DNA of 64,000 bases, from contig JAFKFH010000018.1 in NCBI GenBank assembly GCA_017307375.1, positions 62,001-126,000 of the forward strand, given 5' to 3'. This document shows, piece after piece, positions 50,362 to 54,963 of this stretch. The notes under the pieces are model-generated. The model saw nothing but the letters and a program-made list of their open reading frames with translations, was not told the origin of the DNA and made no database searches. The position numbers were made by a program, and so were the translations under genes. The stretch comes from Alphaproteobacteria bacterium (GTDB lineage Bacteria > Pseudomonadota > Alphaproteobacteria > Ferrovibrionales > Ferrovibrionaceae). The number at the start of each line of letters is the position of its first letter. Position 1 is the first letter of the stretch.

Positions 50362-50868
50362 ATGACGCGCATTTTCCCACTTGCCGCCCTGCTCATCCTT
50401 TTGACGCAGCCCGCCTGGGCCGCCTGCACCGAGATCGCGGCGCCCAAGGTCGACTGGGGCGACTGCACCTTCGATCGGACGACCCTGACCGGCGTCGACC
50501 TCACCGGGGCCAGCCTGCGCAACACCAGCTTCAACTCGGCCAACCTGCGCGGCGCGACGCTCAGCGGCGTCGACGCCAGGCGGGCCAAGTTCGTCGCCAC
50601 CGACCTGGGGCAGGCACGGCTGGATCGCGCCCGGCTCAACGAAGCCGACTTCACCCGCGCCGACCTGACCGAGACGCGCTTCGCCGAGGCCGATCTGCGC
50701 CGCGCCCGCTTCTACGGCGCCAGCCTGAAAGGGGCCAATTTCGCCGGGGCACGCCTCGACGGTGCCGATTTCTACGGCGCCGACCTCTCCGGCGCGATCT
50801 GGACCGATGGCCGGCTGGTCTGCGCCGAAGGGTCGGTCGGCCAGTGCCACCGCCCACCGGGATCCTGA
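50362..50868 (+). CDS. Secreted pentapeptide-repeat protein
   Basis: 168 residues with a signal peptide (1-20, ending AWAAC). Residues about 35-150 carry some twenty A(D/N)LXX repeats, which fold as a right-handed square beta helix. Unlike the cytoplasmic, DNA-mimicking kind, this one is exported, and its mature end carries two cysteines that could form a disulfide. Function unknown. The second pentapeptide protein, at 53.6 kb, is unrelated in layout. Confidence 0.85.
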   Translation: MTRIFPLAALLILLTQPAWAACTEIAAPKVDWGDCTFDRTTLTGVDLTGASLRNTSFNSANLRGATLSGVDARRAKFVATDLGQARLDRARLNEADFTRADLTETRFAEADLRRARFYGASLKGANFAGARLDGADFYGADLSGAIWTDGRLVCAEGSVGQCHRPPGS

Positions 50869-50984: not shown

Positions 50985-51494
50985 ATGGCTGACCTGAAAT
51001 CATCGCCCAACCCGCTGTTCCTGCGCGAGGAGGAATTGCGCCAGGGCATCGAGTTGCTGTTCTACGCCTATCGCGACTTCACCGCCGACCCCGACGCCAT
51101 CCTCGAACGCTACGGTTTCGGACGCGCCCACCACCGGGTCCTGCATTTCGTCGGCCGCAACCCCGGCATCACCATCGCCCAGCTTCTGGCGATCCTGCGC
51201 ATCACCAAGCAGAGCCTGTCGCGTGTCCTGGGCGTGCTGCTGGAGGACGGCTACGTCGAACAGCGCCAGGGCCTGCGCGATCGCCGCCAGCGCCAGCTGT
51301 TCCTGACCGAGAAGGGCCAGGCGCTGGAGGAGGAACTGCGCCAGGTCCAGCAGGCCCGGGTCGCCCGCGCCTACCGCGAGGCCGGGGCCGAGGCGGTCGC
51401 AGGCTATCGCCAGGTGCTGGCCGGACTGATCGACGAGGAGGATCGCGAGCGGATCCTCAAGACCATCCTGCGCGACGGGAGCAGCCGGCGATGA
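50985..51494 (+). CDS. MarR family transcriptional regulator
   Basis: 169 residues with a winged helix-turn-helix (about 55-110, ITIAQLLAILRITKQSLSRVLG and the wing RQGLRDRRQRQL). It begins an operon: its stop overlaps the ATG of the response regulator by four bases (ATGA). A MarR protein fixed to an OmpR-type regulator and kinase is a recurrent alphaproteobacterial arrangement. The signal is not known. Confidence 0.9.
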   Translation: MADLKSSPNPLFLREEELRQGIELLFYAYRDFTADPDAILERYGFGRAHHRVLHFVGRNPGITIAQLLAILRITKQSLSRVLGVLLEDGYVEQRQGLRDRRQRQLFLTEKGQALEEELRQVQQARVARAYREAGAEAVAGYRQVLAGLIDEEDRERILKTILRDGSSRR

Positions 51495-52177
51495 GCGTCA
51501 GCGACGGCGAAGCCCACCTGCTGGTCGTCGACGACGACGAACGCCTCGGCCAGTTGCTCAAGCGCTATCTCGGCGACAACGGCTTTCGCGTCACCGTGGC
51601 CGGCGACGCGGCGGCGGCGCGCGGCCAGCTCGCCGCCTTCCACTTCGACCTGCTGATCGTCGACGTGATGATGCCCGGCGAAACCGGGCTGAGCCTCGTT
51701 GCCGACCTGCGCCGCACCAGCCGCGTGCCGGTCCTGATGCTGACGGCGATGGGCGAACCGTCGGACCGTATCGCCGGGCTCGAGGCCGGGGCCGACGACT
51801 ACCTCGCCAAGCCGTTCGAACCCCGGGAACTGCTGCTGCGCATCGGCGCCGTGCTGCGCCGCGCCCACGCGGTGCCGACCGAGGCGCGCAGCCTGCGTTT
51901 CGGGCCCTTCGAATTCGATCCCAAACGCGGCGAGCTGACGCGGGACGGCCAGCCGGTCGCGCTGACCTCGGGCGAAGCGATGCTGCTGCGCCTGTTCGCG
52001 GCCAATCCCGGGGCGACGATCAGCCGTGCCGACCTGGCCCAGAAGACCGGCGGCGGCGAAGGCCGCGCCATCGACGTGCAGATCACCCGCCTGCGCCGCA
52101 AGATCGAGGACGAACCCAAGAACCCCCGCTACCTGCAGACGGTGTGGGGCGAGGGTTATGTCCTCTGGGCCGACTAG
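51491..52177 (+). CDS. OmpR-type response regulator
   Basis: 228 residues. The receiver domain has acidic DDD at 14-16, the phospho-acceptor Asp58 in IVDVMMPG and Lys107 in LAKPFEP, so it should accept phosphate. The winged-helix effector domain (about 130-226) ends in VWGEGYVLW. It lies between the MarR gene and a kinase gene that lacks its own histidine, so the phosphate may come from another kinase or from a small donor. Confidence 0.93.
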   Translation: MSVSDGEAHLLVVDDDERLGQLLKRYLGDNGFRVTVAGDAAAARGQLAAFHFDLLIVDVMMPGETGLSLVADLRRTSRVPVLMLTAMGEPSDRIAGLEAGADDYLAKPFEPRELLLRIGAVLRRAHAVPTEARSLRFGPFEFDPKRGELTRDGQPVALTSGEAMLLRLFAANPGATISRADLAQKTGGGEGRAIDVQITRLRRKIEDEPKNPRYLQTVWGEGYVLWAD

Positions 52178-52191
52178 CGGGCGCGCAGGCC

Positions 52192-53493
52192 ATGGGCAAG
52201 GTCAAGCGCGGCCTGCCCCGCACGCTGTTCGGCCGGGCGCTGCTGATGCTGACGGTGCCGCTGGTGGTGGTGCAACTGGTCACCAGCTTCATGTTCTACG
52301 ACCGCCACTGGCAGACGATCTCGCGCCGTCTGGCGCTGGGGCTGGGCGGCGAGATCGCGGTGCTGATCGAGGCGCGCGAGCGCCTGCCGCGCGAGGACCA
52401 GCGGTTGATCGCCCACCAGCTGCGCACGCAACTAGAAGTCGAGACCAGCTTCGATCCCGGCGCACGGCTGGCCGACAGCGGCTCGGCCCTTCTGCCCTAT
52501 CGCTCGGTGATCGAGCGGGCGCTGGCCGAACGTATCCTGATGCCGTTCGTACTGGACGAGACCAGCGACGGTTTCATCGCCATCCATGTCCAGCTGCCCG
52601 ATGGCGTGCTGACCGCGGTCACCACCGACAAACGCGTCTTCTCGACTACCACCTGGCTGTTCACCGCCTGGACCATCGGGCTGAGCCTGATTCTGCTCGG
52701 CATCGCGATGTTGTTCCTGCGCAACCTGGTCCGCCCGATCACCCGGCTGGCCACCGCGGCCCAGGCGTTCGGCAAGGGCCAGGGCATCGGCGATTACCGG
52801 CCGTCCGGGGCGGCCGAGATCCGCCAGGCCGGCACGGCCTTCCTGGCCATGCGCCAGCGTATCGAGCGCCAGATCACCCAGCGCAACGCGCTGCTGGCCG
52901 GCGTTTCGGCCGATCTGCGGGCACCGCTCGCCCGCATGGCCGGCACGCTCGACGCCCTGGCGCCGGTCGCCGAGGTGGCCGAGTTGCAGCGCGACGTCGC
53001 CGAGATGACGCGGATGATCGACGGTTATCTCGCCTTCATCCAGGGTGGCGCAGGCGAGCCGCCGGCGCCGGTACGCCTCGATCTGCTGTTTGCCGAGCTG
53101 GCTGCCGATGCGCGCCGCCAGGGCCGCCAGATCATGACCGAGGTGCCGGCCGGCCTGGCCCTGACCGCACGGCCCCAGGCCCTGAAACGGTGCCTGGCCA
53201 ATCTCGTCGACAACGGCCTGCGCTATGGCCGCAACGTGACCCTCACCGGCTGGGCGCAGGACGGCGGCGTCAAGATCGCCGTCGACGACGACGGCCCGGG
53301 CATCCCACCCGAACGGCGGGAAGACGTATTCCGGCCGTTCGTGCGCCTCGACCCGTCGCGCAACCAGGCAACCGGCGGCATCGGGCTGGGCCTGACGATC
53401 GCGCGCGACGTGGCGCGCAGCCATGGTGGCGACCTGACGCTCGGCCGGGCACCTGCGGGTGGTCTGCGCGCCCTGGTCTACCTGCCCGCGTAA
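52192..53493 (+). CDS. EnvZ-like sensor kinase lacking the phospho-acceptor His
   Basis: 433 residues. Two membrane helices (about 12-32 and 160-182) enclose a periplasmic sensor; HAMP and dimerisation regions follow. The ATP-binding domain is intact (LANLVDNGLRYG, DDDGPGIPP, GGIGLGLTIARDVARSHGG). However the H-box, normally GVSHDLRTPL, reads GVSADLRAPL, with Ala240 in place of the histidine (codon GCC, 52909-52911). The protein therefore cannot autophosphorylate there. It may act as a phosphatase, an ATP-driven sensor or with a partner kinase. ATG 52192 follows the regulator gene by 14 bases. Confidence 0.9.
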   Translation: MGKVKRGLPRTLFGRALLMLTVPLVVVQLVTSFMFYDRHWQTISRRLALGLGGEIAVLIEARERLPREDQRLIAHQLRTQLEVETSFDPGARLADSGSALLPYRSVIERALAERILMPFVLDETSDGFIAIHVQLPDGVLTAVTTDKRVFSTTTWLFTAWTIGLSLILLGIAMLFLRNLVRPITRLATAAQAFGKGQGIGDYRPSGAAEIRQAGTAFLAMRQRIERQITQRNALLAGVSADLRAPLARMAGTLDALAPVAEVAELQRDVAEMTRMIDGYLAFIQGGAGEPPAPVRLDLLFAELAADARRQGRQIMTEVPAGLALTARPQALKRCLANLVDNGLRYGRNVTLTGWAQDGGVKIAVDDDGPGIPPERREDVFRPFVRLDPSRNQATGGIGLGLTIARDVARSHGGDLTLGRAPAGGLRALVYLPA

Positions 53494-53595: not shown

Positions 53596-54963
53596 ATGAA
53601 CCAGATGGCGGCACCCCAGGACGGCGGCATTGCGCTCACGCGCATTGACCAGACTCGCCTGAACGACATGCTTTACGCCCATCAGCTCTATGTCGCCAAG
53701 AAGCAGGGTGGCAAGCGTGCGATGCTGTCGTTCCATGACCTGTCCGGCCTCGATTTCAGCGATCGCGACCTCAGCCAGGCGGACTTCTCCTCCTCGCGCC
53801 TGTCCGGCGCCAACCTGTCGAATGCCAGCTGCCAGGGGGCGAGCTTTCTGGGCGCGGACCTGACGCTGGCCGACCTGACCGGCGCGGACCTGACGCGCGC
53901 GGACCTGCGCGGCGCCTGCCTGCACGGCGCCACCCTCGACGCCGCCAATTTCACCGAGGCCGATTTCCGCGAGGCAAGCCTCGCCCGCTATGGCAACGAC
54001 GCCGCCAAGCGCCTGACCTTCGAAAAGGTCACGACCGACCTGAGCCAGCTGTCGGCGCGGGGCGCCAACCTGTCGGGCGCCCGTCTCGCCAACATGGCCG
54101 TGATCGATTCCGACCTGTCCGACGCGATCCTCAGCCACGCCGATCTGCGCCGCACCGACCTGCGCAATTCCGATCTCAGCCGCGCGCGCCTCGATTCGGC
54201 CGATCTGTCCGGTGCCAACTGCCAGGGCACGCGCATGGTCGAGGCGTCGCTGATCGACGCCAAGCTGACCGGCACGCGCTTCCGCGGCGCCGATCTCACC
54301 GGGGCCAAGGTCGATCCGGCCGCCGCCGAGCGGGCCGATATCAAGAGTGCCCTGGGCCGCGCCGAGGAGCAGGAGCGCGAACAGGAACTGGCCGAGACGC
54401 TGGCCCGCCACGATGTCTGGGTCCAGTCCGGCAGCCGCGACGGCGCCCGGGCCGACCTGCGCCGCATCGATCTTTCCGGCCATGCGCTGCGCGGCGCCAA
54501 TCTCGCCGCCGCGCTGATGCAGGATTGCCAGTTGCGCGGCGCCGATCTCAGCCGCGGGATCCTGGCCATGGCCGACCTGACCGCCGGCGACCTGGCCGGC
54601 GCCAATCTCGCCAATGCCGACCTGCGGGGCATTACGCTGGTCGGCGCCCAGTTGGCCGATGCCAACCTGTCGGGCGCCGATCTCAGCCCGGTGCAGAACA
54701 TCGGCGGCCGGGGACAGAGCATCGCGTCCAACCTCGACCGCGCCGACCTGACCGGCGCGCGGCTGCGCGGCACCGTGCTGCGCGGGGTCAAGCTGGTCGG
54801 TGCGAAGCTGACCAATGCCGACCTGCGCGATGCCGACCTTACCGGCGCCAACCTCTCCGAAGCCGACCTCACCGGCGCCCGCCTCGACGGGGCCCGCCTC
54901 GAGGAAGCGCTGCTGCGCACCGCGACCGGCCTGCCCGACGCGATCCGGGCCCAGGTCATATAG
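53596..54963 (+). CDS. Long cytoplasmic pentapeptide-repeat protein with two repeat blocks
   Basis: 455 residues. Two blocks of A(D/N)LXX repeats (about 48-238 and 284-440) form two beta-helix rods. They are joined by a charged helical linker (about 243-275, SALGRAEEQEREQELAETLA). The N-terminal 45 residues are not repeats. No signal peptide, unlike the protein at 50.4 kb. Long pentapeptide proteins can mimic DNA and protect gyrase, but most have no known role. It follows the kinase gene by 102 bases with an AT-rich promoter-like gap. Confidence 0.88.
   Translation: MNQMAAPQDGGIALTRIDQTRLNDMLYAHQLYVAKKQGGKRAMLSFHDLSGLDFSDRDLSQADFSSSRLSGANLSNASCQGASFLGADLTLADLTGADLTRADLRGACLHGATLDAANFTEADFREASLARYGNDAAKRLTFEKVTTDLSQLSARGANLSGARLANMAVIDSDLSDAILSHADLRRTDLRNSDLSRARLDSADLSGANCQGTRMVEASLIDAKLTGTRFRGADLTGAKVDPAAAERADIKSALGRAEEQEREQELAETLARHDVWVQSGSRDGARADLRRIDLSGHALRGANLAAALMQDCQLRGADLSRGILAMADLTAGDLAGANLANADLRGITLVGAQLADANLSGADLSPVQNIGGRGQSIASNLDRADLTGARLRGTVLRGVKLVGAKLTNADLRDADLTGANLSEADLTGARLDGARLEEALLRTATGLPDAIRAQVI

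Follow-up and report, generated by a model that had tools for sequence, protein, structure and literature searches.

The kinase locus

The window, the whole 64,000-nucleotide stretch of DNA analysed here, carries a sensor kinase gene preceded by genes for a MarR-family protein and an OmpR-type response regulator. These genes, and the features within the kinase, are as follows.

50985-51494, + strand: MarR-family regulator, 169 aa, its stop overlapping the response regulator start in ATGA (Pfam MarR_2, 59.4 bits)
51491-52177, + strand: response regulator of OmpR type, 228 aa, retaining D58 and K107 (Response_reg 96.6 bits, Trans_reg_C 67.7 bits)
52192-53493, + strand: EnvZ-like membrane sensor kinase without the phospho-acceptor His, 433 aa (open frame, Pfam, alignment)
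52720-52875, + strand: HAMP domain, residues about 177-228 (PF00672, 33.9 bits at 175-225)
52876-53061, + strand: degenerate DHp domain, residues about 229-290 (without HisKA match; longest DHp terminal branch, 1.98, n = 48)
52909-52911, + strand: GCC codon, Ala240 instead of the phospho-acceptor His (His in 86 of 86 rows apart from the two copies; the second copy has His too)
53062-53490, + strand: well-conserved ATP-binding (CA) domain, residues about 291-433 (HATPase_c, 78 bits)
53284-53310, + strand: G1 box, DDDGPGIPP (alignment)
53338-53361, + strand: F-box Phe383 to ATP-lid Arg390, intact in this kinase (alignment; the paralogue's stretch is without Phe383 and three residues shorter)
53377-53394, + strand: G2 box, GIGLGL (alignment)

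The kinase frame starts at 52192 and stops at 53491-53493, its translation including ...LLAGVSADLRAPLARMAGTL..., and two membrane helices were judged present by eye. Its best NCBIfam model is EnvZ (NF007004; 178.1 bits, below the curated cut-off of 415). By sequence, the cytosolic parts of CpxA and EnvZ are the solved structures nearest to it, as they are to the second copy, which is treated below. Compared with a canonical HisKA kinase, the acceptor His of the HisKA/DHp domain is missing, while HATPase_c is present with its N, G1, F and G2 motifs, all found in the alignment; set against EnvZ, the F-box and lid fall on its FQPFVRGDSAR segment. No match to HisKA (PF00512) was returned by the Pfam scan of this kinase.

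The original prediction described an H-box reading GVSADLRAPL with GCC at 52909-52911, functional-looking N, G1 and G2 motifs, a regulator retaining Asp58 and Lys107, and a MarR gene coupled to it by an ATGA overlap. Each of these holds: the H-box lies in an open frame, the motifs are in the alignment and the ATP-binding domain scores 78 bits, the two regulator residues were counted by hand on the translation, and the junction is ATGA at 51491-51494. The best NCBIfam model for the regulator is OmpR (NF007005; 224.5 bits, below the curated cut-off of 331). Both upstream genes are well preserved, with 1 of 55 conserved columns altered in the MarR protein (against 38 rows) and 3 of 81 in the regulator (against 46 rows). 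The order MarR, regulator, kinase seen in the window has its counterpart at relatives' loci, where, within limited flanks, a regulator lies near the kinase in 46 of 47 and a MarR gene in 38 of 47.

Pfam places pentapeptide-repeat proteins on both sides of the operon, at 50362-50868 (168 aa, with a signal-peptide-like start by eye) and 53596-54963 (455 aa). We rejected these neighbours as part of the system, neither being matched at the other loci searched; one scan of genome contigs gave three distant matches.

Alanine in an altered DHp domain

The codon for residue 240, GCC, is two bases away from CAC or CAT. We read the H-box column in 48 rows and then in 39 more, which, with rows from the same genome left out, represent 83 genomes. 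The best match in all 83 has His, a few of these matches being distant (27-31% identical) and perhaps not orthologues. Of the 96 genomes in the underlying search 95 had a match; among the 95 others, 12 were left unread, their match being absent, weak or partial. A real His-less class, which the original prediction had considered, finds no support in the genomes read, and we rejected it.

At the DNA level, an alanine H-box pattern, G[VI][ST]ADLR[TSA]P, matched in 2 of the 385 class genomes sampled, and in this spelling the window gene is the sole kinase. The other match (L060) was discarded as a kinase, its frame looking flavodoxin-like by eye. That the search works is indicated by a control in which the same pattern with a His codon matched in 34 of 41 genomes, with exactly one match in each of 18 family genomes.

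Ala240 is accompanied by other changes in the same domain. Among DHp columns at least 90% conserved in 82 relatives, 7 of 24 are changed in the window copy (T232N, M234L, H240A, T244A, T247A, L251G and A283I); the ATP domain has a single such change (A342G) among 28 columns. K250A and R284Q are further changes at columns at least 90% conserved in a smaller set of 46 rows, and L251, like the His, is identical in 86 of 86 other rows. The base composition at third codon positions is uniform, GC3 being 0.887 in the DHp stretch and 0.891 in the whole gene. None of the 26 CA columns conserved in at least 45 of 46 rows has been lost from the window copy, and thus its ATP domain has stayed constrained despite the missing acceptor. 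Judged from these sequences, Ala240 is real and the DHp domain is an evolved domain rather than the product of a single error. Relatives with an ordinary H-box, expected beforehand to signal a point mutation or sequencing error, do exist, but that conclusion is unsupported because the domain changed at several conserved positions jointly.

The window duplicate (L001) and three distant sequences (L031-L033) were left out of the alignments, a row truncated at a contig end (L042) was left out of the tree, column-loss and branch analyses, and the genome's own distant paralogues (L098-L100) were left out of the conserved-column counts.

A second copy in the same genome

The genome (7.54 Mb, one of 18 family genomes examined) encodes a second full-length kinase, 49% identical to the window kinase, at C9:234644-235954 (L034 2645-3955). 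The two group as sisters (99/93) in the 48-row tree, whose bootstrap was unsettled at the end (correlation 0.875). Two copies at E<=1e-60 occur, among the 18 family genomes, in this genome only, and a match at E<=1e-65 is present in 301 of 385 sampled class genomes, with two in this genome alone when up to four candidates were scored in each.

The genes of the two copies lie in different operons on different contigs. The second copy sits between a GT2 glycosyltransferase gene (TGATG overlap) and an O-antigen ligase gene (ATGA overlap), at L034 1743-4999, and the 5 kb of that locus show no MarR or regulator gene adjoining it. In 11 other family genomes no kinase match was found next to the GT2 gene, in flanks of ~1.5 kb downstream in ten and ~65 bases in one.

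In its H-box, GVSHDLRSPL, the second copy keeps the His, with T244S, and keeps T247, K250 and L251; nowhere else in the genome does the H-box pattern with His match. HisKA is recognized by Pfam (30.8, cut-off 26.9), and the N, G1 and G2 motifs are kept. Its F-box and lid stretch, however, is three residues shorter than that of the window copy and lacks Phe383, a residue that the window copy shares with 86 of 86 other rows. R385 and R390, found in 80 and 81 of the 86 rows, are missing or changed in one alignment. The shortened lid still has one Arg, which could substitute for one of the two and which is placed differently in the matches to CpxA and EnvZ. The loss of Phe383 is independent of where that arginine is placed. 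The lid arginines themselves are not universal, Arg385 being absent in 6 of 86 rows and Arg390 in 5 of 86. In three relatives (L083, L093 and L094) the ATP lid is short or rearranged and its usual arginines are missing, with the His kept.

The DHp domain of the second copy is changed too, with T244S, M272V and M275R, and the protein is divergent around TM1 (z -2.5; F35L, W40G). Position 275 (window numbering), in DHp helix 2, has Arg for a Met conserved in 80 of 82 relatives; if this residue lies in the dimer core, the change could disfavour a homodimer of the second copy. Neither copy's frame contains a stop.

Rates of change by domain

We measured terminal branches for each domain on a fixed tree of 48 rows. 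No row exceeds the window copy in DHp branch length (1.98, the next being 1.15), and its CA branch is ordinary (0.73, rank 18); in CA the longest branch belongs to the second copy (1.75, the next being 1.25), whose DHp branch is 0.68 (rank 8). When columns were resampled, the difference between the copies in log(DHp/CA) was above zero in 100 of 100 bootstraps (median 1.92, 95% interval 0.94-3.6). The longest-branch rank was retained in 72% of bootstraps for the window DHp, a branch that is poorly bounded (0.61-6.48), and in 94% for the CA domain of the second copy. Set against the 36 of 46 other rows with branches above 0.1 in both domains, log(DHp/CA) gave z 3.0 for the window copy and z -1.0, an ordinary value, for the second.

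Elsewhere the two proteins differ less from their relatives. For the sensor and membrane parts the window copy is ordinary (rank 29 of 48) and the second somewhat faster (rank 13), and HAMP is fairly fast in both (ranks 4 and 7 of 48), with 0 of 15 HAMP columns conserved in at least 45 of 46 rows changed in the window copy and 1 of 15 in the second. End branches in the whole tree are 0.93 and 1.25 for the window and second copies, against a median of 0.66 and values up to 1.31 in other rows. Counts of lost columns in DHp versus CA give p = 0.018 for the window copy, p = 1.0 for the second and p = 0.12 for the interaction (Fisher). The branch-length contrast is stronger than the plain counts, which point in the same direction and are too few for a significant interaction.

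Discussion

The genome holds two related kinases whose losses are complementary, together with a conserved regulator and MarR gene. We propose, giving the idea close to an even chance, that the kinases arose by duplication in this lineage and have since split the work of one EnvZ-like kinase between them as a heterodimer. The window copy has kept the ATP-binding catalytic domain and no longer has the His or the docking face for the regulator; the second copy has kept both of these and is without the F-box Phe and some of the ATP lid. As both retain the membrane, sensor and HAMP parts, they could pair. In such a dimer the ATP domain of the window subunit would act in trans, phosphorylating the His of its partner, which would then pass the phosphate to Asp58 of the window regulator; we infer that neither copy would work alone. 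The second copy is presumed to serve this regulator because the genome's next-closest regulator is only 49% identical to it and adjoins a kinase of its own.

Precedent for such chemistry exists. In EnvZ, ATP on one subunit phosphorylates the His of the other, and heterodimers of an H243A and a G2-box mutant phosphorylate in vitro; the cis kinases ArcB and EvgS, in the same study, do not complement (PMC4734776). Complementation needs trans chemistry, and the heterodimer reading therefore fails if this kinase family acts in cis. It should also be borne in mind that, once each copy has lost one domain's function, there is a sizeable probability that the losses fall on opposite domains by chance.

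The strongest competing explanation is that the second copy works as a kinase although its lid is unusual and shorter, and that the window copy is a non-catalytic subunit resembling DivL, which binds ATP and tunes its partner or the regulator. The second copy does keep the His, N, G1, G2 and one lid Arg, some relatives are likewise without one or both lid arginines, and DivL is itself a pseudokinase whose function requires neither kinase nor phosphatase activity (PMC4211667), which shows that proteins of this sort occur in the same bacterial class. We nevertheless think this explanation unlikely, if worth serious attention, as Phe383 is absent in the second copy alone, the CA domain of that copy is the fastest of 48, and a merely regulatory window copy has no obvious need of every strongly conserved CA residue. 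Decay of both copies would leave the MarR and regulator pair independent of them, supplied by acetyl phosphate or another kinase or acting without phosphate. The end branches of both copies are above the median, invariant residues have been lost, and other EnvZ-like kinases that keep the His are encoded in the genome (L098-L100). Against these points, the frames are free of stops, the window CA domain is constrained and relaxation has hit different domains in the two copies, which makes decay a quite unlikely account.

Among the mechanisms offered in the original prediction, action through a partner kinase is the one that the evidence favours, the candidate being the sister paralogue with its His intact and its F-box and ATP lid damaged. 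Another suggestion made there, phosphate-independent ATP sensing by the pair, may apply. The idea of a phosphatase is weakened. His-less mutants of EnvZ can keep phosphatase activity, and the window kinase, with its ATP domain and D241 intact, might be a dedicated phosphatase of its own regulator. Its T244, which we take to correspond to the phosphatase residue T247 of EnvZ, has become Ala, and T247, K250 and L251, presumably on the face that docks the regulator, are lost as well. Ala at 244 occurs with an intact His in 3 of 86 rows, so T244A alone is not decisive, and on the whole set of changes we judge the phosphatase improbable. It is hardly credible that the alanine reflects a sequencing or assembly error or contamination. 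This is the sole genome of its genus in the sample, with an estimated contamination of 2.07%, but two base changes would be required, nearby conserved residues differ too, GC3 is uniform, the operon order is that of relatives and the tree joins the window protein to the second copy from the same genome.

The system shares with EnvZ/OmpR the TM-HAMP-DHp-CA architecture and has EnvZ and OmpR as its best NCBIfam models. It differs in that both proteins fall below the equivalog cut-offs, in the MarR gene that overlaps the regulator gene, and in that two natural paralogues here bear the kinds of defect engineered in EnvZ. In Mycobacterium tuberculosis the split kinase HK1/HK2/TcrA has its His and ATP domains on separate natural proteins, partial ones from adjacent genes, whereas here there are two full-length membrane paralogues in distant operons. 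DivL, from Caulobacter and relatives, is a further likeness: it too is alphaproteobacterial, with the His replaced and the ATP motifs kept, and Magnetospirillum magneticum DivL has Ala at the His position (PMC4211667). DivL has PAS domains, Tyr throughout the homologues save the one named exception in M. magneticum, and a docking interface that binds DivK~P (PMC4211667). The window kinase, in contrast, is an EnvZ-like membrane kinase with altered docking-face residues; it has the Ala of a DivL-type protein and no PAS domain in the Pfam scan, HAMP being found there instead.

Mixed kinase pairs are already known. ChrS and HrrS of Corynebacterium glutamicum resemble the window pair as paralogous kinases of which one can be catalytically dead, and their native forms heterodimerise by two-hybrid (PMC9491836). 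The dead ChrS described there came from laboratory evolution, through a frameshift in the CA domain, did not need its own His and showed no significant heterodimerisation (PMC9491836). In Pseudomonas aeruginosa, heterodimers of the two sensor kinases GacS and RetS control output (PMC12189002); these are hybrid kinases, and RetS inhibits GacS, without a division of His and ATP domain between them.

No natural paralogous kinase pair with complementary His and ATP-lid loss appeared in the titles and abstract openings of the literature searched, a body outside which most subscription papers lie, and no paper on the PetP/PetR system was among the literature matches listed. It is doubtful, yet a real possibility, that the pair constitutes a natural obligate heterodimeric kinase in which one full-length membrane subunit contributes ATP catalysis only and the other acceptor and docking only. 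Since the subunits belong to the regulator operon and an O-antigen operon, such a kinase would behave as an AND gate, active only if both operons are expressed.

If this is true, a homodimeric sensor can turn into an obligate heterodimer after duplication, and a single-signal system can thereby acquire two-input logic. It would also counsel against taking every His-less kinase for a phosphatase or a scaffold, as the acceptor may sit in a distant paralogue.

Residue 20 of the window regulator (51548-51550) is Gly, where 43 of 46 relatives have Arg. This residue lies in a helix that we assume contacts the kinase, and the Gly is possibly an adjustment to the altered kinase.
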